This document shows positions 23,537-46,467 of a stretch of 64,000 bases of DNA, one piece after another (position 1 is the stretch's first letter; the number at the start of each line of letters is the position of its first letter). The stretch is from Paracidobacterium acidisoli (GTDB lineage: Bacteria > Acidobacteriota > Terriglobia > Terriglobales > Acidobacteriaceae), in assembly GCF_003428625.2 (NCBI RefSeq), contig NZ_QVQT02000007.1, positions 1 through 64,000 of the forward strand. The letters are read 5' to 3'. The notes under the pieces were generated by a model that was given only the letters and a program-made list of their open reading frames with translations, ran no database searches and was not told where the DNA came from. Made by a program: the position numbers and the translations under genes.

Positions 23537-23550
23537 ACTGTATACTAAGT
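23537..23550. promoter_or_regulatory. GTATAC operator-like site 1
   Basis: ACTGTATACTAAGT lies in the divergent region between the MFS gene (minus) and regulator 2 (plus). On the minus strand it reads CTTAGTATACAGTT and matches the extended consensus of sites 2-5 (T-Y-A-GTATAC-A-K). FCD-type GntR proteins such as UxuR bind palindromes with a GTATAC centre. Confidence 0.6.
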
Positions 23551-23694
23551 TCACTTGGGGACTCTGTCAATGCTTCACCACAGCGGAATTGCAGTATCAT
23601 CACCAGACAAATGAGATTTTTTCATAAATAAATATGGAGCCCGCAACGACTGTGCATTTCCAGCCAAAACCCACCCATTCCGTACGGAGACCGC

Positions 23695-24399
23695 ATGGCT
23701 GAACCGGCAACGCCTTCCACACTCAAGATCTATCTGCTCCAGAAGCTGCGCGAGACGATTCTCTCCGGCCGATACAAACCCGGCGACCGCCTGAATGAAA
23801 GTCTTATCGCGCGTGAATTCAAAATCAGCCGTATTCCGGTCAGAGAGGCCCTTCTTCAGCTTCAGGAAAGCGGGCTGGTGACCAACCGGAAGCGGAAGGG
23901 CATGTTTGTAACCCTGCTGTCGGAAGAGGACACACAGAAGATCAACAGCGTGCGCCTGGTTCTGGAAACGGAAGCGCTGAAGCTGGCGCGGCGACGCATG
24001 ACGCCGGAGACCGCGGCGGCGCTTACAGCTCTGGTCGACAAAATGGAGGGATGGGACGGCACATTATCCGAGGCCGCCGCTCTGGATCTGGAATTTCACC
24101 GGACGATCTGGGAAGCCTCCGGAAACGCTTATCTGGCAAAGGTCCTGGATTCGCTGGTGGCTTCCTTATTTACCTACAAGACCCTGGAGCATATCAGCTA
24201 TGATCTGCGCCGCTGGCGTCTGAACCATCACCGCGCGCTGCTCGATGTCGTGCTCGGTTCGGAGGAGCAGGATATTCAGGGTGCGCTGCTGATGCATCTG
24301 CGGATGGCCTACAAAGATCCGGAACGATATTCCAGCCTTGCCCGGTCGCAGTCCTGGCCCGCCCGCACCGGGAAAGACCCCGAAATCACCAGGCGATAG
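23695..24399 (+). CDS. GntR-family transcriptional regulator, FCD subfamily (regulator 2)
   Basis: This 234-residue protein has a winged helix at residues about 8-72 (LQKLRETILSGRYKPGDRLN, SRIPVREALLQLQESGLV) and an FCD domain with DLEFH and RLNHH motifs. It is strikingly similar to regulator 1, so the two derive from a duplication. It sits between two GTATAC sites, one at 23540 upstream of it and one at 24505 downstream, before the dehydratase gene. It is therefore the best candidate for the protein that binds them. The likely inducer is a sugar acid or its dehydrated product. Confidence 0.85.
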   Translation: MAEPATPSTLKIYLLQKLRETILSGRYKPGDRLNESLIAREFKISRIPVREALLQLQESGLVTNRKRKGMFVTLLSEEDTQKINSVRLVLETEALKLARRRMTPETAAALTALVDKMEGWDGTLSEAAALDLEFHRTIWEASGNAYLAKVLDSLVASLFTYKTLEHISYDLRRWRLNHHRALLDVVLGSEEQDIQGALLMHLRMAYKDPERYSSLARSQSWPARTGKDPEITRR

Positions 24400-24500
24400 A
24401 GCGCCGGATCTTTCCTCGCGCCGCCTGCCGGGAGGAAACAGGAGAAATGTGACTCTGTTCACCGAGGAACATTCTGTGTTCTTCCTCCTCTCTGATAGTA

Positions 24501-24514
24501 TTCAGTATACAGAT
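24501..24514. promoter_or_regulatory. GTATAC operator-like site 2
   Basis: TTCAGTATACAGAT lies 105 bp upstream of the dehydratase start, between it and regulator 2. It matches the extended consensus shared with four other intergenic sites. Confidence 0.6.
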
Positions 24515-24618
24515 ATGACTTCAGGCAAGGCATTCCGTCATCGGGAAAACGTGTACAAAACTCTTTCCATCCGCGGATCGTTCCGGACAGACGGGACCCC
24601 GGCTTTGCGGAGCGGCGC

Positions 24619-26340
24619 ATGAAAACCGGAAAAAGCCTTCGCTCGGCAGCATGGTTCGGTTCGGCTGACAAAGACGGCTTCATCCATCGGAGCTGGATGC
24701 GCGGCTATCCGGAAGACGTTTTCGACGGACGGCCGGTTATCGGAATCTGCAATACATGGTCGGAGCTGACTCCCTGCAACGCGCACTTCCGCGAGCTTGC
24801 GGAGCGGGTAAAGCGCGGCGTGTGGGAGGCGGGAGGGTTTCCCCTCGAGTTTCCCGTTATGTCTCTGGGAGAGACGAACATCAGGCCGACCGCCATGCTC
24901 TTTCGCAATCTGGTGAGCATGGATGTGGAGGAATCCATCCGCGCCAATCCGATCGATGGGGTGGTTCTGCTGTGCGGATGCGACAAGACCGTTCCCTCTC
25001 TCATCATGGGAGCCGCGAGCTGCGATCTGCCCACTCTGGTTGTCTCGGGCGGTCCCATGCTGAACGGCAAATTCCGGAATACCATGATCGGCTCGGGCAC
25101 AGATGTGTGGCGCTTCAGCGAGGACGCGAGAGCAGGTATTCTCAGCCTGCCTGAGTTCCGGGAGGCCGAGGTGTGCATGTCCCGCTCCGCAGGCCACTGC
25201 ATGTCGATGGGCACGGCGTCCTCGATGGCCTGCATGGTCGAGGCTCTGGGCCTGGGGCTTCCGCAGAATGCGGCTATCCCCGCCCCCGATTCGAGACGGC
25301 TTACGCTGGCTCATCTGGCCGGCCGCCGCATCGTGGAAATGGTTCACGAAGACCTTCGCATGTCCCGAATCCTGACGCGGCAGGCATTTGAGAATGCCAT
25401 TCGTGTGAATGGCGCCATTGGCGGCTCGACGAATGTCGTTCTCCACTCTCTGGCTATTGCGGGAAGAATCGAGGTCGACCTGTCGCTGCATGACTGGGAT
25501 GTTCTGGGCCGCGATGTCGCGACCGTCGTCGACCTGATGCCGTCCGGACGCTTCCTGATGGAAGACTTTTATTATGCGGGGGGACTTCCGGCCATTCTTC
25601 GTCTGCTCGGCGAGAACGGCCTGCTGCATCGCGACGCTCTCACCGTAAACGGGAAGACGATCTGGGAAAATGTGCAGCATGCAGCGAACTGGAACAGCGA
25701 AGTCATCCGCCCCGTCGACAATCCGGTGGCCGCTCACGGAGGCATTACCGTGCTGCGCGGCAACCTCGCGCCCGATGGAGCCGTGATCAAGCCCTCCGCC
25801 GCGTCGCCTCATCTGCTCCGCCACCGCGGCCGCGCCGTAGCATTCGACAGCATCGAGCATTATCGCCAGCGCATTGCCGATCCGGAGCTCGACGTGGACG
25901 AGAATTCCATTCTTGTGCTGAAGAACTGCGGTCCCTGCGGTTATCCCGGTATGCCCGAGGTCGGCAATATGGGCCTGCCTCCTGGCATACTGCGGCGGGG
26001 CATCAGGGATATGGTGCGCATCTCGGACGCGCGCATGAGCGGAACCGCGTATGGCACGGTGATCCTGCATGTGACGCCGGAAGCCGCTGTGGGCGGCCCT
26101 CTCGCGCTGGTTCGCGATGGCGACTGGATCGAGGTGGATGTGGAAGCGAGGAAGCTCCATCTCGACGTATCGGACGAAGAGCTGGCGGCGAGGCGCTCGG
26201 CGTGGAAAAAGCCGGAACAACGGATGAAGGGCGGCTATCAGGGGCTGTACGTCGACCGCGTGATGCAGGCAGACCGGGGAGCGGATTTCGATTTTCTGGT
26301 TGGCTGCCGCGGCGCAGATATTCCACGGGAATCTCATTAA
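24619..26340 (+). CDS. IlvD/EDD-family sugar-acid dehydratase (L-arabinonate dehydratase-like)
   Basis: This 573-residue cytoplasmic enzyme removes water from an aldonate to give a 2-keto-3-deoxy acid. Cys53 (TPCNAH), Cys121 (GCDKT) and Cys194 (GHCMSMGTAS) are spaced as the [2Fe-2S] ligands of L-arabinonate dehydratase. The C-terminal SDARMSGTAYGTV holds the catalytic Ser. The length and the motifs MPSGRFLMEDFYYAGG and CGPCGYPGMPEVGNMG favour the pentonate/hexonate dehydratases over IlvD itself. An SDR follows 13 bp later. L-arabinonate, D-xylonate, L-fuconate and related acids are all possible substrates. Confidence 0.85.
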   Translation: MKTGKSLRSAAWFGSADKDGFIHRSWMRGYPEDVFDGRPVIGICNTWSELTPCNAHFRELAERVKRGVWEAGGFPLEFPVMSLGETNIRPTAMLFRNLVSMDVEESIRANPIDGVVLLCGCDKTVPSLIMGAASCDLPTLVVSGGPMLNGKFRNTMIGSGTDVWRFSEDARAGILSLPEFREAEVCMSRSAGHCMSMGTASSMACMVEALGLGLPQNAAIPAPDSRRLTLAHLAGRRIVEMVHEDLRMSRILTRQAFENAIRVNGAIGGSTNVVLHSLAIAGRIEVDLSLHDWDVLGRDVATVVDLMPSGRFLMEDFYYAGGLPAILRLLGENGLLHRDALTVNGKTIWENVQHAANWNSEVIRPVDNPVAAHGGITVLRGNLAPDGAVIKPSAASPHLLRHRGRAVAFDSIEHYRQRIADPELDVDENSILVLKNCGPCGYPGMPEVGNMGLPPGILRRGIRDMVRISDARMSGTAYGTVILHVTPEAAVGGPLALVRDGDWIEVDVEARKLHLDVSDEELAARRSAWKKPEQRMKGGYQGLYVDRVMQADRGADFDFLVGCRGADIPRESH

Positions 26341-26353
26341 GACGAGGACAAAA

Positions 26354-27106
26354 GTGAACACTATCGATCTGGAAGGCCGCCATGCGGTCATTACCGGCGG
26401 AGCGGAAGGAATCGGAAGAGCGATAGCCGAGAGACTGCTGGCATCCGGCGCCTCCGTCTCCCTGTGGGATATGGACCAGGACCGGCTCGGGACAACGGCC
26501 GCACAGCTGAACGCAGAAGGCCGTATCCAAACCCGAACCGTCAATGTAACGGAGCCGGACAGTGTACTGCTGGCGGCCGAGGAAACAGCCCGTAGCTTCG
26601 GAAAGATCGATATTCTCGTGGCCAATGCCGGCATCGCCGGCCCGAACTTTCCCTGCTGGGAGTATCCCGTCGATGCGTGGCAGCAGGTGATCCAGGTTGA
26701 TCTGAACGGAGTCTTCCACTGCTGCCGGGCTGTTGTGCCTTTTATGCTGAAGCAGGGTTATGGACGCATCGTGAACGTGGCCTCGATCGCCGGCAAGGAA
26801 GGAAATCCCCAGGCATCGGCCTACAGCGCAGCCAAGGCTGGCGTCATCGCTCTGACGAAATCACTGGGAAAAGAGCTGGCGGAGCACAACATCGCGGTAA
26901 ACTGCATTACGCCCGCCGCAGCGCGCACACGGATCTTCGATCAGATAACCCAGCAGCATATCGATTACATGCTGGCGAAGATTCCGCGGAGACGCTTCGC
27001 GGAGGTCAGTGAAATTGCGGGGATGGTCGCCTGGCTGGTCTCTGAAGAAAACTCCTTCACGACCGCCGCCGTCTTCGATCTGAGCGGCGGCCGGGCGACG
27101 TATTAG
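26354..27106 (+). CDS. short-chain dehydrogenase, partner of the dehydratase
   Basis: This 250-residue SDR starts with GTG at 26354, preceded by GAGGA. A longer frame into the dehydratase gene lacks support. It has the cofactor motif TGGAEGIG, NAGIAG and the catalytic SAYSAAKAG. The Asp in SLWDMD at the end of beta 2 suggests a preference for NAD. It is 13 bp behind the dehydratase and surely co-transcribed. In non-phosphorylating pathways an SDR oxidises 2-keto-3-deoxy acids or the starting sugar. Here a 2-keto-3-deoxy-acid dehydrogenase is the simplest inference. No aldolase gene is present in the window. Confidence 0.8.
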   Translation: MNTIDLEGRHAVITGGAEGIGRAIAERLLASGASVSLWDMDQDRLGTTAAQLNAEGRIQTRTVNVTEPDSVLLAAEETARSFGKIDILVANAGIAGPNFPCWEYPVDAWQQVIQVDLNGVFHCCRAVVPFMLKQGYGRIVNVASIAGKEGNPQASAYSAAKAGVIALTKSLGKELAEHNIAVNCITPAAARTRIFDQITQQHIDYMLAKIPRRRFAEVSEIAGMVAWLVSEENSFTTAAVFDLSGGRATY

Positions 27107-27150
27107 AGCCGTTCTCCTGATGCCATAGAGTGGCAGGAACCATGCCGTGT

Positions 27151-27173
27151 GGCCGTTCTTTGGCGGAACGGCC
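27151..27173. terminator. hairpin between convergent operons
   Basis: GGCCGTTC pairs with GAACGGCC over a seven-base loop, between the SDR stop (27106) and the PQQ-dehydrogenase stop (27271). It may terminate in both directions, although no U-run is adjacent. Confidence 0.4.
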
Positions 27174-27270
27174 GCTCCGGAGTCTTCATTTCCCCCTCCA
27201 CACCTTCAAAAGAGCGGCTCCGGAACGCCCCGGCGGCCAGGCACAGAGGAAGAACATCTTTACCGGAGCG

Positions 27271-29664
27271 TCAGTCGGGAAGCGCAAAGCTGTAAAGCGT
27301 ATTTCCCGCGGAAATGGCTACGTACTGCCTTCCATCCACGGCGTAGCTGACCGGTGCGGAGGCGATTGTGCCTCCTGTCTGGAAGTGCCAGAGCGCTCTG
27401 CCCGATGCGGCATCGAGCGCAATCAGGTTTCCATCGGCCGTGGCCAGAAAGACCAGCCCACCGCCTGTGGCCAGGACGCCCGCCGTCATCGAGCCGCGAA
27501 AGGTCGAATACACCCATTTCGCCGCTCCGGTCCGGGTGTCGATCTCTTTCATTCCGCTTCGATGCTCTTCACCAGAAAGAAAAAAGGGACGTCCCCCCAT
27601 ATACTGGCGCCCCGCCTCATATTTCTGGGATACGCTTCGGTAGCCCAGAGCGCTGTCCGTCACCACCACATACAGCTTCGAATGAATGCGGTCGTAGGAG
27701 GGGTTTGCCCAGTCCGCGCCGCCGATGACGGTGGGCGAGACAATATTGCCGGTCGGCGTCGCCTTCCAGTTCGGCAGCAGAATCGGAGTGCCGTCCGGGT
27801 GAAAGCCGCCGTTCCAGGTCTGCCTGACATAGGGTTTGGCAAAGACAAACCTTCCGTTATCCCGGTCGAGCACATAAAACAGCCCGTTGCGGTCTGCCTG
27901 CAGCAGACGCCGGCGCGTCGTGCCTGCCACGGTCTGGTCCGCGAGCACCACATCTTCGTTCGCGTCCCAGTCATGCGTATCGCCGGGAGTGAACTGGTAA
28001 TACCACCTGAGCTTTCCCGTATCCGGATCGAGCGCCAGAACGGAGCAGGTAAACAGGTTGGCGCCTTCGCGGACGTCCGCGTTCATATCCGGTCCGGGAT
28101 TGCCCACCGTCCAGTAGAGCACGTCCCGCTCCGGATCATAGCTGCCGGTCATCCAGGTGGGCCCTCCGCCCTGCTTCCAGCTATCCCCGGTCCAGGTCTC
28201 GCTTCCGGGCTCGCCCGGCCTGGGCACGGTGTAAAACCGCCACAGCCGCCTTCCGGTTACGGCATCGTAAGCGTCAAGAAAGCCGCGAATCCCGAATTCT
28301 CCCCCCGCGACTCCGACGATGACTTCCTTTTTGATCGCCAGCGGGGCCTCGGTGATCGAATAACCCTGCAGGGTATCGGCCACCTGCGTCTCCCAGAGCA
28401 GGCGGCCCGTTCGCGCATCGAGGGCGACCATGGCGGCATCCAGCGTGCCGAAAAATACACGGCCGCCCAGCACCGCAACGCCGCGATTGAAGGGGTTGGA
28501 CTGGTAGGGATTGATCGCCTTCTGCCGGCGCTCATATTTCCAGATCACGAGCCCGCTGCGAGCATCGATGGCATACACGCCGGCCGCATCGCTGGTCGTA
28601 TAGGTGGTGTACATCACGCCGTCCACCACCAGCGGAGTCGCTTCGAGAAGCGGACCGGGCGGCATCTGCACCGCCCAGTGCGCCTGCAGCCGCCCAACAT
28701 TGGCGGGATTGATCCGGGCCAGAGAGGAAAAGTGATCTCCCTGATAATTGCCCCAGTAGGTCAGCCAGTTCTGCGGCTCCTTCCGGGCGTTGCGCAGCCT
28801 TTCGAAGGTAAGGCCGGGCGGCAGAGTCGCCTGCACCGTTTTGCTGAGGTCGCGCGCTTTCAGCGTCTTCAGATAAGCCACCAGGTTCTGAATTTCGGCG
28901 GAGGAGAGCACCTGTCCGTAGTTGTCCGGCATCAGCGATTTCGTTTCCGAGTGCTCCTCGACAATCTCGCTTCGGTCGAGCCTGCGAAGCTTTCCGTTCA
29001 GGTCCATCAGAATCAGCGTGAAGTTGTCTTCCGCCCGCTTGATCCCCGTCATGACCTCGCCGTTTCGGGTGGTGACGCGAACGGCTTCCGGCCGAAGCTG
29101 GCGCCGCCCAGGCGAAGCAGGGGCGTTCGGATTCAGAATCACAGATCGCAGAGACTGCGCCGGGTTCTTCCCGACGGCGGAGAGATCCGGTCCCAAAACG
29201 GAGCCGCGCTCGTTGACCTCGTGACACCGCCCGCAGCCGCCCTTGCCCCAGAACGTCGCTTCTCCGGCCACAGGGTCGCCCGGCACCGTCTCTCCGGCAC
29301 TGGCGCTGCCTGCGCTCAGGCTCCGCAGCCAGGTGATGATCTTCCATATATTGTCCGCAGGCAGAGCGGAAAAGGAGGGCATCTGCGTGCCCGGAATGCC
29401 GGTGCGGATGGTCCGGAAGAGATCGCTGTCTTCGCTTCCATGAGAGAAGCTGCCGGTTGCCAGCGACGGGCCGCGGCCTCCCTGGGCATCCCCGCCATGA
29501 CACTCCTCGCACGTCTGCTGATACAGCGCTCTGCCGGCTGCCACGGCCGCGGCAGAGTCCGCAAACGGATTCGTTTGCGCATCCGGCCTGTCCGCCTGCT
29601 GCGCCGTCAGCGGCAGAGCGCCGGACAAAATCATCAGCAAAACAATCCGAACCGGGTATTTCAA
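27271..29664 (-). CDS. PQQ-dependent dehydrogenase with two N-terminal cytochrome c domains
   Basis: This 797-residue periplasmic quinohemoprotein starts at TTG 29664, with GAGGAG eight bases upstream. After the signal peptide come cytochrome c domain 1 (CEECH at 52-56, Met ligand near 95) and domain 2 (CGRCH at 144-148, ending SLMPDNYGQVLS). Domain 2 resembles the haem-binding domain common in Planctomycetes (NPNAPASPGRRQLRPE). Residues about 300-797 form the eight-bladed PQQ propeller (TYWGNYQGDHFSSLARINPA, LYWTVGNPGPD, DTHDWDANED). Asp565 and Asp567 form a D-x-D pair at the catalytic position. The usual vicinal Cys pair is absent. It oxidises an alcohol or sugar and passes electrons to its own haems. 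Confidence 0.85.
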   Translation of the reverse strand: MKYPVRIVLLMILSGALPLTAQQADRPDAQTNPFADSAAAVAAGRALYQQTCEECHGGDAQGGRGPSLATGSFSHGSEDSDLFRTIRTGIPGTQMPSFSALPADNIWKIITWLRSLSAGSASAGETVPGDPVAGEATFWGKGGCGRCHEVNERGSVLGPDLSAVGKNPAQSLRSVILNPNAPASPGRRQLRPEAVRVTTRNGEVMTGIKRAEDNFTLILMDLNGKLRRLDRSEIVEEHSETKSLMPDNYGQVLSSAEIQNLVAYLKTLKARDLSKTVQATLPPGLTFERLRNARKEPQNWLTYWGNYQGDHFSSLARINPANVGRLQAHWAVQMPPGPLLEATPLVVDGVMYTTYTTSDAAGVYAIDARSGLVIWKYERRQKAINPYQSNPFNRGVAVLGGRVFFGTLDAAMVALDARTGRLLWETQVADTLQGYSITEAPLAIKKEVIVGVAGGEFGIRGFLDAYDAVTGRRLWRFYTVPRPGEPGSETWTGDSWKQGGGPTWMTGSYDPERDVLYWTVGNPGPDMNADVREGANLFTCSVLALDPDTGKLRWYYQFTPGDTHDWDANEDVVLADQTVAGTTRRRLLQADRNGLFYVLDRDNGRFVFAKPYVRQTWNGGFHPDGTPILLPNWKATPTGNIVSPTVIGGADWANPSYDRIHSKLYVVVTDSALGYRSVSQKYEAGRQYMGGRPFFLSGEEHRSGMKEIDTRTGAAKWVYSTFRGSMTAGVLATGGGLVFLATADGNLIALDAASGRALWHFQTGGTIASAPVSYAVDGRQYVAISAGNTLYSFALPD

Positions 29665-29735
29665 ACGTTTTTCTCCTCTGCTCGCATGGCTTCAGACCTG
29701 CGGGCCCTGTAATTTTCTTCGCCGGGGCAGACCGT

Positions 29736-31349
29736 TCACCGGGGCAGACTGTAGGCGTAGAGGCTGTCCCCGGCGCTGAAGAGAATCCACTGCCTGCCGT
29801 CCAGCATGTAGGTGATGATTCCGCCTGACTCGTTCGCCGCGACCTCCTGGTGCCAGAGGATTCGGCCTTTGTCGGCGCTGAAGATAATCAAATTCTTCTG
29901 GTCGTCGCCAGTGATGACCAGATTGCTCGCAGTGGTCAGAAGAGCGGGCCCTGTCGTGGGCGGCGCATTGTTCAGGTTCGGATACTCATGCGTCCAGACC
30001 GCGCGCCCGGTGAGTGGGTCGATCGCCTGCAGAATGCGCCGGGTGTGACCGATGCCCGCCCCGGTGCCGCCATATCCGGAGGGATGGTCGCTGTCGTCCA
30101 CCAGGTAATAAATAGCCTTCCCTTCCACCGAGTTCACATAAAACAAGCCGGTTTTGGGACTGTAGGCGGGGGCAAACCAGTTGGTGGCGTTCACGATGTT
30201 GATCGAGCCGCCGACGGTGGGGTCTTTATCCGGAATCGGGATAGGTTCGCCCTGCGGCGACAGGCCCGAGGAATAATCGAGCGGAACAAAAGGCCGAACG
30301 ACCAGGTACTTTCCGGTGACGCGATCCAGCGTCACAAAGAAGCCGTTGCGCGCCGCCTGCGACACCAGTCTGCGCGGCTTTCCGTCAACGACTTTGTCGA
30401 TCAGAATGGGCGCGGTGGTGTTGTCGAAGTCATGCGTGTCGTGCGGTGAGACCTGGAAGTACCATTTCAGCCTGCCGGTATCGAGATCGAGCGCGACGAT
30501 GGATTCGGTCCACAGATTAGCTCCGGGACGCCCCTGTCCGGCAAAGACCGGATTGGTATTGCCCGTCGGCCAGAACAGCAGATTGAGTTTGGGATCATAC
30601 GTGCCCGGCATCCAGGTCATGCCTCCGCCATGTTCGGAGGCTGCTTCATTGGGCCACGTTTTGAGCGCCGGATCGTCTTTGCGCGGCGTGGACCACCAGG
30701 TCCACTGCAGCCGGCCCGTCGCCGGATCGAACGAATCGAGAAAGCCGGGCATGTCCATCGCATCGCCGCCGACCCCGACAATCACATGGTTCTTCACCAC
30801 CAGGGGCGCCGACGTTGAGAAATACTGCTTCCGCGCATCGGCATAATTCTTCCGCCAGAGCTCTTTGCCGGTCGTGGCATTGAGGGCAATCAGCCAGTTG
30901 TCAGGAGTGAGGAAATAGACCGTCGTTCTCCAGATGGCGACGCCGCGCTGTCCAATCAGGTGACCGCCATGGTCCACCCATTCGTAATGCCACAGTTCCC
31001 TGCCGGTGTGCGCATCGAGCGCCCACACATGATCCGGAATGGTGATGTAGAGAACGCCGCCCACCAGAAGCGGCGTGCATTTGATCACCGGCACCGGCGC
31101 GCCGCGCTGCGCGCCGACACTGGTGATCTGATAAACCCACTGCTGTGCGATCCGGCTCACATTAGCGGGTGTGATCCGGGTCAGCGTGCTGTAGCGCTGG
31201 CCGGTGTAATCGCCGTTGTACGTGGGCCAGCTCGTGACCGGCGGTCTGCCGATGGTATTCGGATCAGGTGAAGCGACAGGCGCGGCCGCAGCCAGACTCA
31301 CGAGCGCGGCAGCCGCAATGGCCATGCAGACGGCAGGGACAGATCTCAT
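29736..31349 (-). CDS. soluble periplasmic PQQ-dependent dehydrogenase
   Basis: This 537-residue protein has a signal peptide (AIAAAALVSLAAAAPVA) and a PQQ propeller (TSWPTYNGDYTGQRYSTLT, LFWPTGNTNPVF, SPHDTHDFDNTTAPILID). Asp307 and Asp309 again form a D-x-D pair. There is no haem motif, so it needs an external electron acceptor, most simply the diheme cytochrome encoded directly upstream. Its ATG overlaps the stop of that gene by 4 bp (ATGA), indicating translational coupling. The second PQQ dehydrogenase follows after 71 bp. The likely substrate class is a sugar or sugar alcohol, from the surrounding genes. Confidence 0.85.
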   Translation of the reverse strand: MRSVPAVCMAIAAAALVSLAAAAPVASPDPNTIGRPPVTSWPTYNGDYTGQRYSTLTRITPANVSRIAQQWVYQITSVGAQRGAPVPVIKCTPLLVGGVLYITIPDHVWALDAHTGRELWHYEWVDHGGHLIGQRGVAIWRTTVYFLTPDNWLIALNATTGKELWRKNYADARKQYFSTSAPLVVKNHVIVGVGGDAMDMPGFLDSFDPATGRLQWTWWSTPRKDDPALKTWPNEAASEHGGGMTWMPGTYDPKLNLLFWPTGNTNPVFAGQGRPGANLWTESIVALDLDTGRLKWYFQVSPHDTHDFDNTTAPILIDKVVDGKPRRLVSQAARNGFFVTLDRVTGKYLVVRPFVPLDYSSGLSPQGEPIPIPDKDPTVGGSINIVNATNWFAPAYSPKTGLFYVNSVEGKAIYYLVDDSDHPSGYGGTGAGIGHTRRILQAIDPLTGRAVWTHEYPNLNNAPPTTGPALLTTASNLVITGDDQKNLIIFSADKGRILWHQEVAANESGGIITYMLDGRQWILFSAGDSLYAYSLPR

Positions 31350-32185: not shown

Positions 32186-32346
32186 CCGGATATTCCTTTC
32201 GGAATCGGAGAGTTTGAATCCACTGCGTGGCCCGAAAACCTGGGAGAGCCGAAAAGCCGGTTTTTGAGATTCCCACTTTCTGCTGAAAGGAGCTCCCGGC
32301 ACATTGAGGTATGCGCGGCACTTCGTTCTTCTCGAAAACGAGTGAA

Positions 32347-32359
32347 GTATATAATATAC
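32347..32359. promoter_or_regulatory. palindrome in the divergent promoter region
   Basis: GTATATAATATAC is a perfect inverted repeat around a single A. It lies between the cytochrome/PQQ operon (minus) and the metallo-hydrolase gene (plus, start 32403). It may be a variant of the GTATAC operator found upstream of the neighbouring units, or simply an AT-rich promoter core. Confidence 0.4.
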
Positions 32360-32402
32360 AATTACACTTCGGAAACAGAATCTGAAGCAAACCGGGAGAA
32401 AA

Positions 32403-39200: not shown

Positions 39201-39545
39201 TTGCGTCGCGGCACCTACCTTTAACTGCGCGTCTACCGTAACAGCGCCGACCTGAAGAGTGATGGGGCCACGCACATAGGTCGTAAAGCCCTGCTTTGTG
39301 AAGGTCAGCTGATAACGGTCCGGAACGATCGAGTTCGTATCGTAGAGGCCGGCACCGTCCGTTACAAAAATGTGGGTGTCGCCCTTATCGACATCCAGGA
39401 CAGTAACCGTCACACCAGGAATAACTGCCCCCGAGGGATCGGTTACCGTGCCACGGATGTCTCCGGAATTTGTATTTTGCGCCAGACCGGCCACGCCGAT
39501 GCCGACTAACAAGCCTGTCAGACAAATGCGTATTGTTCTCCCCAT
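36255..39545 (-). CDS. Oar-like TonB-dependent receptor of the sugar locus
   Basis: This 1,096-residue outer-membrane protein has a signal peptide (LTGLLVGIGVAGLAQ), then a carboxypeptidase-regulatory domain (GDIRGTVTDPSGAVIPGVTV, residues about 28-110), a plug with NGGMPYYSNFLADGA, and a barrel with many aromatic girdles (TWHGSAYEYFQNDAMNARN). It ends in ILQLSARFSF with a terminal Phe. It lies between the secreted glycosidase-like gene and the TPR gene on the minus strand and ends at an intrinsic terminator. It presumably imports an oligosaccharide released by the secreted enzymes nearby. Confidence 0.9.
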   Translation of the reverse strand: MGRTIRICLTGLLVGIGVAGLAQNTNSGDIRGTVTDPSGAVIPGVTVTVLDVDKGDTHIFVTDGAGLYDTNSIVPDRYQLTFTKQGFTTYVRGPITLQVGAVTVDAQLKVGAATQKVTVSADLPLLQTESSEQSTTLSSETMQKLPNVSANWTNFMVLLPGASGANGSNAGGTSNPGTGVSINGGMPYYSNFLADGASTTLPQSSNFQNATFETVAELQVNTSTFSAEYGVGGAAFNQISKGGTNTWHGSAYEYFQNDAMNARNYFSPTVPFLRYNEFGGSVGGPILRNRTFFYFNYDKVLNESATFGYNTVPTAAMMQGNFTGMPPIYDPSTLTQNPDGSYSRSQFQDNQIPQGDIQKVALAIQQYFQPANVPGTPASGYPGEVSNNHYYSYTAPAPVSHLFGRLDYDLTSKNRLTFSITEINAVTSGKSAISNCPVGCTNSDVVNYLTQISDVWTISPSLVNEFRFGYTRQGNWFVPQTLNGGYPGKVGLQYAKADLFPDTFISGSCCGNLTAGTAATLVENADDLSDVVTLVKGKHVLHFGGELLAYQEADTTWGNVQAGEFTFTGVFTQQSPKSSGTGAAYADFLLGQEQTWSANNFPEDGPRAKKPALFIQDDYKVRPDLTLNLGLRYQIQEGWGEAHNRLGSFDPSLMNAATSTPGAMWFAPANGRTTLQKSKYDLLLPRIGFAWAPQANLTVRGGFGIYAYPWGCDVYCAGLGFGSNSYGSISSTNGLTPVATWDEADPGLPYLAVSHSSTAYNGQTVNYNVYDLPVPTMYQWSLSVQRQIGPTMMVQGSYVASAGRHLSFPVDVNQVPESKLSVNDQGSRPYPQFQSILADPSNANSSYNSLQLVAEKRLSAGFSFSVNYTWSHMLDTQDSSGFGTTGSGGGASRGGLQIYQNAFDPAANYASSNFDVRNMFKGYGVYQLPFGRGRRFLNDNMFLDEALGGWQATATFVAQTGNPFTPTISGPNNSYSQGLNSYWLPNVVSSPTPKNRSIKQWYDPAAFSLPAAATYGDAGRNSLRAPGLSELNGSLGKTFAIPFESVHLEIRGDANNVLNHASFSAPDTNVNDPGAGVITSTTSKARILQLSARFSF

Positions 39546-39651
39546 TACGGCCTCCAGAACTTTCGTTCAATCGCACTGCGATATATTCAGTTTTTTCGCC
39601 GATACTGCATTGGCTCCTGCCACATCGGCATTTCGTATTCATGCTTCGTAA

Positions 39652-41565
39652 CTATGGCGTCTCACTGAAAGCGGCGTAGCTGTGTGGCTGTATCGTGATC
39701 TGAAAATTCACGCGATCCGGCCCCGTATTGATGATTCGGCCGCCGAACCCGCGACGCGGCGTGCTGGCCGATCCGGTAGTGACATCTCCGGTCTGCATAT
39801 TGGTAATTTTGGTTGTGCCCCCCGTGAGGGCGACAGTGACCGCAACCGGTTGATCCAGGTAAGACTCCACCACGAAAGTGTGGTTGTCATACGCAAAGAG
39901 GCTGACCTTGTCGGGTCCATCGAGGCGAACCGGGAAATCTCTCAGAAGGTTTTCTCTGAGGACGGAAACTATGCCGGAGGGATAAGAGTAAAGATCGTTA
40001 AAGTTATCCGGAATCGTGAGGACGTAAATAACTCCCTTCGAATAGTGGTCCGACAGCAGTATCGGGAAGCTGTTGCCGTTGGCACCTGCCCGGATCAGAG
40101 GAACGGCGTCGTTCGTGAAAAAATCGATTTCAGGAATAAGTATCCCGCCGTTCTTATTTCCTGCCTCGACCGGCGCGCCATACCCCGCGGCAAACTGATC
40201 CACGATCGCCTTTCGGGACGTGTAGCGCAAGCTGAGCAGGTCACCCAGACCCTTATCCTGAAGCGCCTGGACCAGCCCTGAAGTGATAAATACGTCTTTT
40301 CCCGCCTCAAGCCGGGCCTTGATTTTGCTCACGATCTGCGGATCGTCTGCCGCCTCCTGAGTAAGCAGCACGACTTTGGCATCCGCCGGAAAGGATGGAT
40401 ACATCTCGATCGGAATGCCCATCATTCCGAAGTAATTCTGCAGGAAGTCTTCGCCGGACGAATTGTATGGCTTATAACTTGCGATACCGATGGGGTTACC
40501 GAGTCTGCCGATAACGGGATCAATGCCGCCCAGCGCATATCCGGCGACGCCGGCCATGGTGGAATGCAGCCCCGGATGGGACTTCTCGTACTCATTGACG
40601 AGCTGCTGATAGTCAAAGCTGGTGTGGATATCGCTCCATGCCTGCCGCTGCCCGGCCACAGCCGGATTGAGAAGCTCGGTCCACTTGAAAAGCATGATGG
40701 AAGGAGCTTTGGCGAGCATCGTGTCCCAAAGCTGTTCGGCGTAGCGGTCTACGTAGCGGATGCCGCCGGTATCGACCCATCCTCCGCCATTTCTTCCGGG
40801 AGAGATATTTTCGAAGTAACGGAATATCTCATAGCTCTGATACTGCTGTAAGTGCTGCGGGGTCATATCGGCCTCGCGAGTCTCGTTTCCCGTCCAGATT
40901 TCGTCGAAGATGCCCGGTTCATTCTTCAGGTCATATCCGTTGCCCTGGAAGTGTTCATACCAGTTGGGAAACTTGATGATGACCTTCACCTTCGAATTCA
41001 CCGCTTTTGCAGGGTCCACAATCAGCTCGCGGGAGACCTGATCCATCAGACCCAGACGGAATTCGGCCCAGCTTTTGCTGCCTTTGGCCGCTATGTCGGA
41101 ATCGTATTTTGTGTTGTTGAAATAAAAATCGTCGAGAATGATCTCGTCGAAGTGCCGCGCCGTCTTCTGCGCGAGCATTTTTACAAAGTCCCGGTCTTTG
41201 GGGTCCGTGTAGCAAAAGGACTGAAAGTTATTCGACTCCATCACCGTCAGGCCAATGCCTCCGGCAACTTCCACTCCGCGATCGACGAAAAACTTCTTCA
41301 CCTGATCGAGCAGCTGGTCGTCGGCAACTCGCCCGCTCCGGTACGTTTCGAGATAGACTTTGTCAACTTTGACCTGGTCGTTGATGATCTTCCATGTGCT
41401 CTGCAGATAATTCGAATCTTTCATCTGCTCGACCACATACTCCGGAACGTAGACCGCGACCTCAAAGCTTTTGTACCCGCGCTCTGCCGACGCAGACGGC
41501 GAGAAGTACTGGCAGAGCGAGCAACAGCAGAGGACCAGCAGAAACCATCTCCCAAAACGCGTCAT
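39652..41565 (-). CDS. secreted TIM-barrel glycoside-hydrolase-like protein
   Basis: About 637 residues from the ATG at 41565, which opens a signal peptide (RWFLLVLCCCSLCQYFSPSASA). An ATG at 41592 is also possible. The N-terminal 300 residues look like a barrel with acidic residues at strand ends (EIILDDFYFNNTKYD, FDEIWTGNETRE, IMLFKWTELLNP). The central part (ADAKVVLLTQEAADDPQIVS, DVFITSGLVQAL) resembles the glutamine-amidotransferase-like domain that follows barrels in some glycosidases, and a beta-sandwich ends the chain. I cannot assign a CAZy family. A GTATAC site lies 96 bp upstream. It probably degrades a glycan in the periplasm or outside. Confidence 0.55.
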   Translation of the reverse strand: MTRFGRWFLLVLCCCSLCQYFSPSASAERGYKSFEVAVYVPEYVVEQMKDSNYLQSTWKIINDQVKVDKVYLETYRSGRVADDQLLDQVKKFFVDRGVEVAGGIGLTVMESNNFQSFCYTDPKDRDFVKMLAQKTARHFDEIILDDFYFNNTKYDSDIAAKGSKSWAEFRLGLMDQVSRELIVDPAKAVNSKVKVIIKFPNWYEHFQGNGYDLKNEPGIFDEIWTGNETREADMTPQHLQQYQSYEIFRYFENISPGRNGGGWVDTGGIRYVDRYAEQLWDTMLAKAPSIMLFKWTELLNPAVAGQRQAWSDIHTSFDYQQLVNEYEKSHPGLHSTMAGVAGYALGGIDPVIGRLGNPIGIASYKPYNSSGEDFLQNYFGMMGIPIEMYPSFPADAKVVLLTQEAADDPQIVSKIKARLEAGKDVFITSGLVQALQDKGLGDLLSLRYTSRKAIVDQFAAGYGAPVEAGNKNGGILIPEIDFFTNDAVPLIRAGANGNSFPILLSDHYSKGVIYVLTIPDNFNDLYSYPSGIVSVLRENLLRDFPVRLDGPDKVSLFAYDNHTFVVESYLDQPVAVTVALTGGTTKITNMQTGDVTTGSASTPRRGFGGRIINTGPDRVNFQITIQPHSYAAFSETP

Positions 41566-41660
41566 CCGTGAATTTTCTTTTCTGAATCGCATAAAGTTCT
41601 GAACGTCTGCTCCTGAGATCGCCTGCTTCTGATTCTTCATTTCTGTCTGTCGCTCGCCCA

Positions 41661-41674
41661 ATCTGTATACTGTA
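41661..41674. promoter_or_regulatory. GTATAC operator-like site 3
   Basis: ATCTGTATACTGTA lies 96 bp upstream of the secreted glycosidase-like gene (minus) and about 300 bp upstream of the epimerase gene (plus). On the minus strand it reads TACAGTATACAGAT, matching the extended consensus. Confidence 0.6.
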
Positions 41675-41972
41675 TTTTTTGACGCGGCCATAGTACATAC
41701 CACCTGAGGATTGTGCAAGCATATTTGTTTTCGTCGTGTGATTATGGGTGAGGTATGCATATGTTCTCGTTTATTTTCTTATGCTTACCCTGTATCTTTC
41801 TCCTTCAGCTGAGCATAGCCATAGATCCTCTCTGCAGAAGACGCGCCTGCTCCGAGCGGGTTGGGGAGCCGCTATACTTCCTGCTATGCAAAGATCAAGT
41901 GCATTCAGTATGCTTACTGCTTCCGGGCCAGGATCACAACAAATCCGAAGAAGAGGAAAGGGAGAAACGACA

Positions 41973-43202
41973 ATGAAACAGGTGGCCTGGCTACTGGTTG
42001 CATGTACGTTGTTGATCGGCGGGTGCAGGCATCCGTCCCAGGAAAATGCAGGCAAGCCGTTGCCGGCTGCGGCCCAGGGGCCCATACAAATCGGCGGCGA
42101 AAATGTGGTCACTCTTACTCGTAAAGCGACCGGCAACGGCGCCAGGCCAGAGTTTCTCTCGCTCACCTTCCTGCCCGGGCGGGGGATGAATGTCTTTCAG
42201 ATCAAAGCCAGCATCCCCGGCAGGGGTGATATCTCCGTTTTGAATTCTCCCTCTGTCGAGACCGTCGCAGCCCGCCTCAACGGCACAGGCATGGACAGGA
42301 CCGGCGGAGCGAGCGTCGGCTTCGGAGAAGCCTTTCTGATTCCCTATCCCAACCGCATCTTCGGACAGGCCTCGCCGGACGGGACGACGCTCACCACGCA
42401 ATGGCATGGCCGCACGATTGTGCTGCCGGCATTTCCCCGGCGCAGAGAGACTGCAGCGACGCCGGCGCCGGCCGGGCCTCCGGACAATATGGGGATGGTC
42501 ATGCATGGGCTGATCCTGAAGTCCCAGGCGCAGGATGTGCAAACGCAGACGACTGCGGATGGTCAGACAGCAACGGCCGTCATCCATGCCGGCGATTTCG
42601 GCGGCCACTGGCTCTCAAAGACCGATCTTCATTTCACTTTCGCGCTTACCGGCGAAGCCGTGGACGAGACAATCACGGCAACCAACGTGGGCAGCGAGGA
42701 CGAGCCGATTGCCATCGGCGCGCATCCTTATTTCGCCCTGCCGAGCGGAGACCGCGGCCAGGCGCGAATCCACGTCCCGGCCAGCATGATGGCGGTGGTC
42801 AACAATTATCATCAGGAGTTCCCGACCGGGCAGCTCAAACCCGTCAAAGGAACGATCTATGATTATCGATCGCCGGAAGGCGCAGCTCTCGACGATCATG
42901 CGCTTGACGATAACTTCTCTCACCTTCAGCGAACCCATGGCGCGGTCGAGGTGAAGGTCATCGATCCGGCGGCAAACTACGGCGTCGATGTGGACGGGCT
43001 GTCGCCGGAGATCAAAACCGTGCAGATCTATTCTCCGCAGGGCAGAAAATTTGTCGCCGTGGAAGAGCAGTTCAACTTCGTGGACCCCTTCGGAAAGGAA
43101 TGGAAGGGGATGGATACGGGAATGGTGACCCTGCATCCCGGGCAGTCGACCACCTGGAGGCTGCGCCTGCGCCTGTTTACTCCGAATGCGCCCTCCAGGT
43201 GA
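41973..43202 (+). CDS. aldose 1-epimerase family lipoprotein
   Basis: This 409-residue protein starts at the ATG at 41973, with AGGAAAGGGAG upstream; longer frames have no support. A lipobox (LLIGGCRH) marks it as a lipoprotein. The galactose-mutarotase fold is shown by IPYPNRIFGQ, the conserved His in IGAHPYFALP and the catalytic Glu in FVAVEEQFNF. The enzyme interconverts alpha and beta anomers. Being exported, it fits with periplasmic dehydrogenases that prefer one anomer. A 60-residue insertion (PRRRETAATPAPAGPPDN region) is unlike cytosolic enzymes. The beta-helix gene follows 103 bp later on the same strand. Confidence 0.8.
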   Translation: MKQVAWLLVACTLLIGGCRHPSQENAGKPLPAAAQGPIQIGGENVVTLTRKATGNGARPEFLSLTFLPGRGMNVFQIKASIPGRGDISVLNSPSVETVAARLNGTGMDRTGGASVGFGEAFLIPYPNRIFGQASPDGTTLTTQWHGRTIVLPAFPRRRETAATPAPAGPPDNMGMVMHGLILKSQAQDVQTQTTADGQTATAVIHAGDFGGHWLSKTDLHFTFALTGEAVDETITATNVGSEDEPIAIGAHPYFALPSGDRGQARIHVPASMMAVVNNYHQEFPTGQLKPVKGTIYDYRSPEGAALDDHALDDNFSHLQRTHGAVEVKVIDPAANYGVDVDGLSPEIKTVQIYSPQGRKFVAVEEQFNFVDPFGKEWKGMDTGMVTLHPGQSTTWRLRLRLFTPNAPSR

Positions 43203-43304
43203 CATATTGCAGTTCAAAACTCCATGGCAGCTCAAAATTCAGGAGAAGCCGGCTTCCTGTCGCCGCTTTATGAGGCGCAACGGAGGCCTGCCGAAAATCC
43301 ACTC

Positions 43305-46300
43305 ATGAGAAAAATTCTGCTGTTTGCCACGCTCCTCGCCTGTGCTTCTTCCGCACTGGCCGCATCCGTCATCACCGCGCGGCTCGACGATCCCGAAGCG
43401 GTTTATCTCACCGCGCAGGAGTTCGGCACGCACGCCGATGGAAAGGCCGACGACAGCGCCGCCATCCAGGCCGCCATCGACAAGGCCGAGAGCCGTACGC
43501 GCGCGGGGATCGTGTTCATCCCCTCAGGCCGCTATCGGCTGACGCGCACCCTTTATATCTGGCCGGGCGTGCGTGTCTTCGGCTATGGCGCGACCCGTCC
43601 CGTATTCCTGCTGGCGGACAACACGCCGGGCTTTCAGAACGATCCCGGCGTGATGGTCCTGTTCGCCGGCGCGGGCCCTCACAGCCCATTTGGCATGGGC
43701 CGGCATATTCCCTTTCCTCCGCCCGGCAGCGTGCCGCCGAACCCTGCCATTGCCGACGCCAATCCCGGCACCTTCTATTCGGCGCTGAGCAATGTCGATT
43801 TCGAGATCGGTGACGGCAATCCGGCGGCGGTGGCGATCCGTTTTCACGTTGCGCAGCATTCTCTGCTCAGCCATATCGATTTCCATACCGGTTCCGGTCT
43901 GGCAGCCATCATGGAAGTCGGCAACGAGGCCGAAGACCTGCACTTCTTCGGCGGGCGCTACGGCATCCTCACGGACAAGCCCTCCGATGCCTGGCAGTTT
44001 ACGCTTCTCGATTCCACCTTTAACGGTCAGCGCGAGGCGGCCATTCGCGAGCATGAGGCGGGGCTCACGCTCATCCGGGACACCTTCCATCATGTGCCGG
44101 TGGCCATCGATATCGATCCGCATTACTCCGATGAGCTGTGGGTGAAGGACTGCCGCTTCGAAGACATTTCCAGCTCCGTGGTCATCATCAGCAACGAGAA
44201 GAGTCCTCTCACCGAGATCGGCTTCGAAAACGCCGTCCTGCGCGATGCTCCGACCTTCGCTCAGTTTCGCGAGAGCGGGAAAAAAGTAACCGCGAAAGGC
44301 ACAATTTATCGTGTCAGAAACTTCAATTACGGGCTCATCGTTCCCGGAGAGCATGCAACCGGCGCAATCGGCATGCTCGATGATTCCGTGCCGCTGCATG
44401 CCCTGCCCGCGCCGCTGCCGCCGGCGATTCGGAATCTGCCTCCGAGCGAAGAGTGGGTAAATGTCCATACTCTCGGCGTCGCCGGAGACGACAAAACCGA
44501 CGACACCGCTGCGATCCGGAAGGCTATCGATACACATCGTGTCCTTTACTTCCCTGCCGGCCATTACATCGTGCACGATACGCTCATGCTGAAGCCGGAT
44601 ACGGTGCTTATCGGGCTGCATCCTTCTCTGACCCAGTTCGACCTTCCCGATTCCACTCCCGGGTATCAGGGTGTGGGCGCGCCGAAGGCGGTCATCTCCT
44701 CGCCTGCGAACGGCTCCAGCATCCTTTTCGGCCTTGGGGTCAATACCGGAGGGATCAATCCCCGCGCGGTGGGCGTGCTGTGGCAGGCCGGCGCAGACTC
44801 GCTGGTGGATGACGTGCGGCTGCTGGGCGGGCATGGCAGCGGATTCAATCCTTATAACAACGATCACACCGCCGACCCCGATCTGCACAAGCGCTGGGAC
44901 GGCCAGTACCCCAGCCTCTGGGTGACGCACGGCGGCGGCGGCAGCTTCGCCAATATCTGGACTCCGGATACCTTTGCTCAGGCCGGATTCTATGTCTCCG
45001 ACACCACCACCCCCGGCCATGTGTATGAGCTTTCCAACGAGCACCATGTCCGCAACGAGATCAAGTTCGATCACGTGCAGAACTGGGATATCAACGCGCC
45101 GCAGACCGAGGAAGAGGCCGGCGAAAGCCCCGAATCGCTGTCGATGGAATTCGACTGGTCGAAGAACATCACCGTCGCCAACTATCACGCCTACCGCGTC
45201 ACACGCACCCGCGCGCCTTTTCCTGCAGCGGTCCGCCTTTATCAGTCCTCGAACATTCATTTCCGCAACGTGCTCGTCAATGCCGAGAGCGGATTCGCCA
45301 CCTGCGACCAGAACGGCTGCGGTACGTTTCTGCGCGTGAGCAAATTTCCCTATGAAAACGCTATCCAGGATATGACCCGTCATCTGGAGGTGCGCGAGCG
45401 GCAGTTTGCCGTGCTCGACATTCCCGCCGGTCCGGCCACGCCGGCCGTATCTGACACTTCTGCGGTGTCTGCGCCGGGCGCGCAGGTTCGAAAGCTCGAA
45501 GACGGCTTCTTCTCCATCTCCGGCGCGGCCGTGGATGCCGCGGGCAAGCTCTATTTCGTCGACCACCATCAGCAGCGCATCTACGGCTGGTCGGCATCCG
45601 AAGGGCTTACCGTCGAGCGCGACAATCCGCTGGACCCGGTAAATCTGGCCTTCGACCGGTCGGGCGATCTGCTGGTGCTCTCTTCCGACGGTCCGGAGGG
45701 AACTGTCTATTCCTTCCATCCCGGCTCGCCGAAGGATCAGATCACGGTGCTCACGCCGCAGGCGACAATACCGCACTCCGAAACCATGACACTTCTTCCG
45801 GGCAATTACTGGAACAACGGCGAATTCAGGAATCAGCTCGACTTCGGCACGTTTACCTACACGACGCTGGCGGAGATGTTCGCCCGCGATGTATCGGCTC
45901 CCACAGCCAGGGAATATGTCTCGCCGGATGGCAGCCTCTTTCTGCCTGCACGACGTGTCTTTCAGCAGGGGCCGCCCGACTCGGTCGGCTGGCGCTTCTC
46001 CGACAACCTGGACACCTACGGCTTCCTCCGCGCCCAACCGGGACAGCACATCTATGTCAGCAGCGAGTCGGAAGACATCACCTACAGCGCGCGGGTCGAC
46101 GCCGACGGCACGCTCAGCGATCTTCATCCCTTTGCCTGGCGCGGCGGTGAGAGCGTCGCCGTCGATGGACAGGGCAATGTATATATCGCGAATGGTCAGG
46201 TCTTCGTCTACAGCCCGTCAGGCAGCCAGATCGCTCGCATCGATGTGCCGGAGCGCCCGATCGACATTCTTTTTGGCGGCTCCGATCATCGCACTCTCTT

Positions 46301-46352
46301 TCTGCTGGCCCACCACGCGCTTTATGCCGTCAGGATACGCAGCACGCGATGA
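43305..46352 (+). CDS. secreted double beta-helix protein (pectate-lyase-3/GH55-like) with an SMP-30-like C-terminal propeller
   Basis: This 1,015-residue protein starts at the ATG at 43305, opening the signal peptide ILLFATLLACASSALA. Two pectate-lyase-superfamily modules each begin with the typical motif (EFGTHADGKADDSAAIQAAI near residue 40, and TLGVAGDDKTDDTAAIRKAI near 395), as in GH55-type enzymes. From about residue 725 the sequence changes to propeller repeats (ISGAAVDAAGKLYFVDHHQQ, NLAFDRSGDLLVLSSDGPEG) and ends PERPIDILFGGSDHRTLFLL, a pattern characteristic of SMP-30/gluconolactonase proteins. The fusion could join glycan cleavage with lactone hydrolysis. It acts outside the inner membrane. 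Confidence 0.7.
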   Translation: MRKILLFATLLACASSALAASVITARLDDPEAVYLTAQEFGTHADGKADDSAAIQAAIDKAESRTRAGIVFIPSGRYRLTRTLYIWPGVRVFGYGATRPVFLLADNTPGFQNDPGVMVLFAGAGPHSPFGMGRHIPFPPPGSVPPNPAIADANPGTFYSALSNVDFEIGDGNPAAVAIRFHVAQHSLLSHIDFHTGSGLAAIMEVGNEAEDLHFFGGRYGILTDKPSDAWQFTLLDSTFNGQREAAIREHEAGLTLIRDTFHHVPVAIDIDPHYSDELWVKDCRFEDISSSVVIISNEKSPLTEIGFENAVLRDAPTFAQFRESGKKVTAKGTIYRVRNFNYGLIVPGEHATGAIGMLDDSVPLHALPAPLPPAIRNLPPSEEWVNVHTLGVAGDDKTDDTAAIRKAIDTHRVLYFPAGHYIVHDTLMLKPDTVLIGLHPSLTQFDLPDSTPGYQGVGAPKAVISSPANGSSILFGLGVNTGGINPRAVGVLWQAGADSLVDDVRLLGGHGSGFNPYNNDHTADPDLHKRWDGQYPSLWVTHGGGGSFANIWTPDTFAQAGFYVSDTTTPGHVYELSNEHHVRNEIKFDHVQNWDINAPQTEEEAGESPESLSMEFDWSKNITVANYHAYRVTRTRAPFPAAVRLYQSSNIHFRNVLVNAESGFATCDQNGCGTFLRVSKFPYENAIQDMTRHLEVRERQFAVLDIPAGPATPAVSDTSAVSAPGAQVRKLEDGFFSISGAAVDAAGKLYFVDHHQQRIYGWSASEGLTVERDNPLDPVNLAFDRSGDLLVLSSDGPEGTVYSFHPGSPKDQITVLTPQATIPHSETMTLLPGNYWNNGEFRNQLDFGTFTYTTLAEMFARDVSAPTAREYVSPDGSLFLPARRVFQQGPPDSVGWRFSDNLDTYGFLRAQPGQHIYVSSESEDITYSARVDADGTLSDLHPFAWRGGESVAVDGQGNVYIANGQVFVYSPSGSQIARIDVPERPIDILFGGSDHRTLFLLAHHALYAVRIRSTR

Positions 46353-46365
46353 GGACGCTATTGCA

Positions 46366-46379
46366 TTTAGTATACATAT
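46366..46379. promoter_or_regulatory. GTATAC operator-like site 4
   Basis: TTTAGTATACATAT begins 14 bp after the beta-helix gene stop and 262 bp upstream of the ThuA-like gene. It is one of two closely spaced sites here. Confidence 0.6.
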
Positions 46380-46453
46380 TGACTTGTCTTGACAGAGGAT
46401 AATGCTGTTCCTTCTCATGGATTCCTTGAATCGTTTGACAAAGAATAAAAGTA

Positions 46454-46467
46454 TTTAGTATACAGAA
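46454..46467. promoter_or_regulatory. GTATAC operator-like site 5
   Basis: TTTAGTATACAGAA lies 88 bp from site 4 (eight helical turns or so) and 174 bp upstream of the ThuA-like gene. The matching flanks and helical spacing would suit cooperative binding by a dimeric repressor. Confidence 0.6.

Follow-up and report, generated by a model that had tools for sequence, protein, structure and literature searches.

Gene content of the locus

The window, that is, the whole 64 kb stretch of DNA analysed here, contains a sugar locus with the gene order GntR1, SDR, MFS, GntR2, IlvD dehydratase, SDR, two quinoproteins, cytochrome c and metallo-beta-lactamase-fold protein, followed by a multihaem-like protein, a TPR protein, an outer-membrane receptor, a secreted protein, an aldose-epimerase-like protein, a pectate-lyase/gluconolactonase-like protein and ThuA. 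The genes referred to below are:

20489–21235, + strand: GntR1, a paralog of GntR2 (Pfam GntR/FCD; 53% identical to GntR2)
21316–22071, − strand: SDR oxidoreductase, downstream of the MFS gene (domain search)
22139–23443, − strand: MFS transporter, D-galactonate-transporter-like, below the cut-off of that model
23695–24399, + strand: GntR2, FCD-domain GntR regulator (Pfam)
24619–26340, + strand: IlvD/EDD sugar-acid dehydratase (Pfam; NCBIfam PRK06131, 920.8 against a cut-off of 539)
26300–27106, + strand: SDR dehydrogenase of the dehydratase operon (domain search)
27271–29664, − strand: quinoprotein dehydrogenase with N-terminal cytochrome c (TIGR04528, 498 bits, below the cut-off of 650)
29736–31349, − strand: acido-empty-quinoprotein group A (TIGR04528, 677 against 650)
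36255–39545, − strand: TonB-dependent-type outer-membrane receptor (OMP_b-brl_4), same direction as the secreted-protein gene
39652–41580, − strand: secreted protein of no assigned family; a low-confidence model resembles glycoside hydrolases
41748–43202, + strand: aldose-1-epimerase-like protein (domain search)
43224–46352, + strand: pectate-lyase-like protein with SMP-30/gluconolactonase domain (domain search)
46619–47635, + strand: ThuA-like protein (domain search)

The IlvD dehydratase scored 859.2 with the L-arabinonate dehydratase model, slightly below its cut-off of 882. No paper on the name "acido-empty-quinoprotein" was found in the literature search. The secreted protein (39652–41580) gave no sequence match in Pfam, NCBIfam or PDB, and its family is kept in related genomes (47–56% identity to 10 homologs). 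Its structural model (11 sequences) reached a mean pLDDT of 51.5, and Foldseek returned seven matches with an E-value of 0.001 or better, including GH164 as the best match and a Clostridium difficile surface protein, with a query TM of at most 0.24. Because the model and the Foldseek matches are too weak, no substrate is named for this protein. The gene content suggests that a sugar may be released and oxidised outside the cell, and that the resulting acid would be taken up by the MFS transporter and dehydrated and oxidised inside.

Farther along the window (49991–63413), Cas3-like, Csd1 and Cas1 genes are followed by a long CRISPR array, a system that we take to be of type I-C. In the array, 83 copies of a repeat near GTCGCTCCCCTCGCGGGAGCGTGGATTGAAAC were found with a period of approximately 66 bp. 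Two stretches of 233 bp (61644–61876 and 63114–63346) share 100% identity, apparently as the result of a duplicated run of spacers. Five long frames on the − strand between 2180 and 12180 (2180, 5056, 8702, 9777 and 11038) gave no Pfam match, and no RNA family reached its gathering score in the window.

GTATAC sites in the window

A first-pass annotation of the window had reported five intergenic GTATAC sites with a shared longer consensus. All five were recovered by a string search of the 64 kb; the positions given (23540, 24505, 41665, 46370 and 46458) are the first bases of the hexamer and not its centres. The predicted operators, with one possible weak addition, are:

23536–23555, − strand: operator 1, core GTATAC at 23540–23545, 25.1 bits, points at the MFS gene, which is divergent with GntR2; TTGACA at 23565–23570 read on the − strand (offset −25)
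24495–24514, + strand: operator 2, core at 24505–24510, 26.5 bits, points at the IlvD–SDR operon
41661–41680, − strand: operator 3, core at 41665–41670, 19.0 bits (the lowest of the five), in the divergent promoter of the secreted-protein and aldose-epimerase genes
46360–46379, + strand: operator 4, core at 46370–46375, 25.9 bits, upstream of ThuA
46448–46467, + strand: operator 5, core at 46458–46463, 22.2 bits, upstream of ThuA; TTGACA at 46435–46440 (offset −23)
32344–32363, + strand: possible weak sixth operator, 14.2 bits, in the divergent region of the cytochrome c and metallo-beta-lactamase-fold genes

The neighbours assigned to the sites earlier, namely the MFS/GntR pair, the IlvD–SDR operon, the divergent secreted-protein/aldose-epimerase pair and ThuA with two sites 88 bp apart, are all correct. 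The longer consensus T-Y-AGTATACA-K (TYAGTATACAK) is exact at four of the five sites, and the site at 41665 carries one mismatch, an A as first base. The intergenic status of the latter depends on the left gene starting at or below 41580; this shorter start is supported because ten homologs align from its residue 13–33.

In total, the window contains 11 GTATAC hexamers against 3.35 expected, a number reached in none of 100 shuffles. Five of the remaining six (5116, 5858, 17974, 22386 and 47920) lie in listed open reading frames, the last within a frame of 204 amino acids, and the sixth (60896) lies in a CRISPR spacer. A matrix derived from 25 sites outside the window placed the five sites at ranks 1–5 of the window (19.0–26.5 bits), while the maximum was 16.4 bits in 50 random sequences of 64 kb. 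In 113 kb of other DNA from the same genome, the maximum was 17.6 bits; this background consists mostly of loci chosen for near-matches, so that the own-genome hit rate is, if anything, overestimated. The score of the possible sixth operator is not significant alone, with about 0.5 matches above 12 bits expected per 64 kb. At the corresponding place of a related locus (L081), GTATAC is present.

Conservation upstream of orthologous genes

A GntR alignment (A1) was scanned against a collection of species genomes, and 79 loci were obtained from the best 80 of 123 matches. The closest among these best 80 were MAGs of Acidobacteriaceae (70–76% identity of the regulator), followed by Caulobacterales, Sphingomonadales, Rhizobiales, some other Acidobacteriota and some gammaproteobacteria with 52–68%. 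The regulator is rare in the phylum sample: only three of 396 genomes, the source genome included, contained a match at 1e-35 or better. The related loci cannot be taken as independent samples; two of them, L069 and L102, represent one contig, which entered the ortholog tallies as L102 only.

GTATAC occurred 28 times in 25 of 75 ortholog upstream regions from 36 loci. Only the palindromic hexamers GCCGGC and CGGCCG, which consist of G and C alone, were more common in these regions. In a matrix scan, 34 of the 75 regions scored higher than each of 40 shuffles, in a few cases at less than 10 bits; much of the training set of this matrix was drawn from the same regions and the window. A site was present upstream of all 15 MFS orthologs examined outside the window (at least 55% identity), across phyla, and upstream of all four IlvD orthologs examined (at least 60% identity). 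In the same scan, no site above the shuffles was found in the regions upstream of SDRb, in most of those upstream of SDRa and at many isolated GntR2 genes. Four MFS regions that lack GTATAC and were outside the training set (L080, L083, L089 and L097) still carry the motif. In three loci (L080, L081 and L107), sites are located between ThuA and GntR1. A de novo search of 16 MFS upstream regions (the window's included), in which GTATAC was not requested, returned the same motif with a log-likelihood of 203, compared to 56–66 in eight letter-shuffled sets.

As a held-out test, 149 genomes of the family of Phenylobacterium sp. Root700 (Caulobacteraceae) were searched for the regulator with a cut-off of 1e-40. 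Four contained it, namely G456, which had been used earlier, and the new genomes G551, G556 and G581. All three held-out genomes have a site of 20.8–29.6 bits at a distance of approximately 120 bp or less from the regulator gene, and G551 has additional sites before two quinoprotein genes. The exact 14-mer GNAYTYAGTATACA was found four times in G456, twice in G551 and once in G560, which has no regulator at 1e-40, against three matches of the reversed control in the family; it was not found in G556 and G581. Phenylobacterium sp. Root700 encodes a second GntR2-like protein (59%) whose gene has its own site, and further sites precede an SDR operon and lie at the start of a quinoprotein gene adjoining a TonB receptor gene, which supports a regulon of this kind in a second phylum. 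The motif is thus kept before orthologous genes, the held-out genomes included, as the first-pass annotation had predicted for a genuine operator.

Three sites were omitted from matrix training, window ranking and the TTGACA, direction and symmetry tests: L089 17083 because it lies inside the coding part of an MFS gene, and L093 13601 and L091 9837, by eye, because they lack the flanks. The last two omissions favour the motif. All three were retained in the count of TGTAT-box offsets.

Rarity and specificity of the motif

In the 5.0 Mb genome, TYAGTATACAK has four exact matches, all of them at the sugar locus, and the same was found for the 14-mer GNAYTYAGTATACA (four matches). With up to two mismatches, the 14-mer WTYAGTATACARWT matched 89 times, compared to 33 times for the reversed control; no more than one mismatch was present in eight matches, among them the five sites reported here. 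Further near-matches in the genome include one on contig C9 and one on contig C10 at 202331. A perfect palindrome on C10, TTCTGTATACAGAA, was considered as an extra operator and rejected, as it sits within the frame of a trypsin-plus-PDZ (HtrA-like) protease. In these pattern searches, the full motif is not frequent outside the locus, contrary to what would be expected of an unspecific sequence.

Among the 395 other genomes of the phylum sample, GNAYTYAGTATACA occurred four times, once each in G006, G215, G312 and G365, and the reversed control 20 times over all 396. The 18 other regulator-bearing genomes contained 16 matches, distributed over 12 of them, against one of the control; the pattern itself had been defined mostly on sites from these same 18 genomes. 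A looser motif, GNAY-N3-GTATACA, was detected in 19 of 35 loci encoding a regulator with the SRIP helix (27 matches in 474 kb). It was absent from all nine SRAP/SRTP loci and all 36 loci of more distant GntR proteins (787 kb together), as was the reversed control. Since the SRIP loci supplied the training sites, the weight rests on the zeroes in the non-SRIP loci, which also differ in gene content. The looser exact pattern was not found in 16 of the 35 SRIP loci, part of which are short contigs without the MFS gene. None of the 10 homologs of the secreted-protein gene has a site in its upstream DNA (118–500 bp); the best GntR2 match in their genomes is 1e-17 or weaker, i.e., they are without a close GntR2 homolog.

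The five sites might also be a chance cluster of a six-base palindrome in intergenic DNA, in line with the six other GTATAC of the window that have no such role and with the single copies of the 14-mer in four other phylum genomes and in G560, none of which has a regulator homolog at the cut-offs used. The conservation before orthologs, the ranking by the outside-only matrix and the held-out genomes refute this explanation, to which we assign a negligible probability.

At some loci with other FCD regulators (L115; L118, which is contig 364 of G035 and corresponds to L073/L074; L070; and L075), a different sign was observed that joins GTATAC to GTCGAC (TGTCGACAGTATAC and variants). It is perhaps a candidate operator of a sister clade.

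Shape of the motif

Most sites are not simple GTATAC palindromes but form a 17-bp imperfect inverted repeat, CTGWAT-N5-ATACAG, which contains GTATAC. Symmetry was scored over 47 sites, comprising 30 upstream sites, 11 hand-picked from the held-out genomes and six degenerate ones. About the base before GTATAC the score was 8.59, compared to 7.11 about GTATAC itself; of the latter, only 1.50 came from the flanks outside the core, and the core had defined most of the sites. The stronger dyad is thus centred 3.5 bp from the centre of GTATAC, and this position led in 98.5% of 1000 bootstraps. Flank symmetry about GTATAC as in the Atu1419/UxuR type was therefore rejected for the set (1.50 vs. 8.59), whereas individual sites, e.g., L102 983, do show symmetry about the hexamer. 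Two sites (in G581 and G556) are perfect TTCGTAT-N5-ATACGAA repeats, and two degenerate sites (L089 9728 and L094 9744) have lost the inner GT and kept both arms.

Of 33 upstream sites, 20 carry a TGTAT box with at most one mismatch at offset −8, on either side; any other offset accounts for two sites at most. The corresponding numbers for 34 other GTATAC, some real sites among them, were nine and at most three. The window sites have the GT-N2-AC core, and the extra box lies 7–12 nt from the core centre as described for the FadR subfamily. Judged from the sequences, either one dimer may occupy the wide repeat, or a dimer on GTATAC may be accompanied by an extra half-site as described for other groups in PMC4494728.

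Direction and probable overlap with the promoter

In 17 of 36 sites, TTGACA (at most one mismatch) precedes the core by 23 or 24 bp on the same strand; any other same-strand offset accounts for two sites at most. On the opposite strand, it occurred at offset −20 in seven sites, all of which lie in alphaproteobacterial-type MFS promoters or belong to L083. According to a hand count with identity cut-offs, 26 of 29 sites are directed at a metabolic gene, two have such genes on both sides (L107 4302 and, counting the left gene, 41665 in the window) and one is directed away (L107 14042); seven of the 36 sites had no gene meeting the cut-offs and were left out. Without identity cut-offs, the tally was 17 at, two away and 10 both. 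Because of the upstream position of TTGACA and the direction of the motif, the operator probably overlies the −10 region of the gene towards which it is directed. This does not extend to 24505, 41665 and 46370 in the window, because TTGACA was not found there.

The same features, i.e., the spacing to TTGACA, the directionality and the overlap with the −10 position, would also be expected if the motif were a −10 promoter element common to these genes rather than an operator. Such an element would spread genome-wide, whereas the exact matches are confined to this locus; moreover, the motif tracks the regulator clade across phyla and has a strong dyad. We therefore regard a mere promoter element as highly improbable.

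The candidate regulators GntR2 and GntR1

GntR2 contains the GntR (PF00392, 64.1 bits, cut-off 27) and FCD (PF07729, 73.3 bits, cut-off 24.3) domains. In the alignment, D131, H135, H178/H179 and H201 were located by eye, and D131, H135 and H201 are invariant in five sequences; an Asp and three His are presumably the metal/acid ligand set of the FCD domain. Over the HTH, GntR2 matched PDB 6z74 (4.5e-6), which we take to be Atu1419. An orthology of GntR2 to UxuR or ExuR was rejected with the curated models (33.8 against a cut-off of 442 bits and 34.6 against 396, respectively). With this score and with the stronger dyad 3.5 bp away, the UxuR-like palindrome centred on GTATAC that had been suggested at first was not confirmed.

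The recognition helix SRIPVREAL is common to GntR1 and GntR2 in the window, and the assignment of the sites to GntR2 is for this reason an inference. GntR2 is flanked by operators 1 and 2, its orthologs of at least 52% identity in the comparison keep SRIPVREAL or SRIPIREAL, and the alphaproteobacterial stretches examined contain one such regulator gene each, in the GntR2 form, many of them with sites. Many alphaproteobacterial GntR2 genes lack a site directly upstream, so autoregulation is not general. That GntR1, or both paralogs together, bind the sites, which would be compatible with the main reading and would mean that GntR2 is not the sole regulator, seems somewhat unlikely. The identical helices in the window argue for it, as does the arrangement in L080, L081 and L107, where GntR1 is divergent to ThuA with the sites between them; in precisely these loci, however, the GntR1 helices are altered (SGRILIREAL, SRIQVREAL and SRVAMRAAL), many of the alphaproteobacterial stretches examined have sites with a single such gene, and GntR1 of the window has no site of its own within the 400 bp examined. 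GntR2 is thus favoured as the binding protein by the sequence comparison.

The proposal that the second regulator controls the whole locus holds in part. A regulon with this operator is strongly supported and GntR2 appears to be the better candidate for its regulator, but "whole locus" is too strong, since GntR1 has no site in the 400 bp and the quinoprotein operon only the weak sixth site near 32350.

Comparison with known regulators and proposed regulation

According to PMC7797058, Atu1419 of Agrobacterium fabrum is an FCD/VanR GntR repressor of hydroxycinnamate genes, whose operator ATGTATACAT is a symmetric, palindromic 10-mer that overlaps the −10 box; two sites lie in one promoter region, and looping was seen by electron microscopy. 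The system described here resembles Atu1419 in the FCD GntR protein, the GTATAC core, the probable −10 overlap and the two sites in one promoter region. In contrast to Atu1419, the flanks of GTATAC are mostly asymmetric, the outer arm is conserved and the genes are different. FadR-subfamily operators of the UxuR/HypR type are given as GT-N2-AC in PMC4494728, with weaker extra half-sites 7–12 nt from the centre in 13 groups. GTATAC is a GT-N2-AC sequence and the outer TGWAT arm fits such half-sites, whereas GntR2 is not a UxuR/ExuR protein and the outer arm makes the stronger dyad here. NanR is an FCD regulator with GTATA-type direct-repeat operators (PMC8012715; also PMC4494728); the regulator type and the GTATA-type repeats are shared with the present system, but the arms are inverted here and the pathway is another one.

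The identity of the sites, their conservation, specificity and direction were demonstrated at the level of sequence comparison. In the proposed explanation, the five sites would be the operators of one regulon. An FCD regulator of the GntR2 type would bind CTGWAT-N5-ATACAG, whose second half together with the spacer creates GTATAC. Lying over the −10 region, the bound operator would block RNA polymerase, and a sugar acid or its dehydration product may bind the FCD domain and lift the repression. Repression by the predicted operator is likely by analogy and is proposed because the Atu1419 palindrome also overlaps the −10 box (PMC7797058). The targets would be genes for uptake (MFS), dehydration and oxidation (IlvD and the SDRs), ThuA, the receptor, the secreted protein, the epimerase and the lyase, with the quinoprotein operon perhaps as a weak target. 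We infer binding by GntR2, the repression, the ligand and the substrate, and assign a probability of about 0.85 to the explanation as a whole, i.e., one regulon with 17-bp operators under a ligand-responsive GntR2-type repressor.

A further-reaching generalization appears doubtful to us: a clade of FCD GntR proteins would read the wide CTGWAT-N5-ATACAG (GT-N9-AC) instead of the family's GT-N2/3-AC, through another dimer geometry or two overlapping dimers sharing GTATAC, the difference between SRIP and SRAP (Ile vs. Ala) in the recognition helix would mark the switch, and Acidobacteriota and proteobacteria would share a single package of regulator, operator and sugar-acid genes.

Among the matches listed in a search of the open-access literature, no paper describes the motif or the regulon in its title or the start of its abstract. 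To our knowledge, few regulons have been worked out in Acidobacteriota. The motif very probably serves as a genuine on/off switch, though one whose kind is otherwise ordinary. As judged from sequence conservation, operator and regulon are real and well conserved, new in detail and known in kind. For the oxidative use of sugar acids in Acidobacteriota, they provide an operator, a regulator and a group of genes that can be tested, and the sites collected across phyla may help to explain operator choice by FCD GntR proteins.
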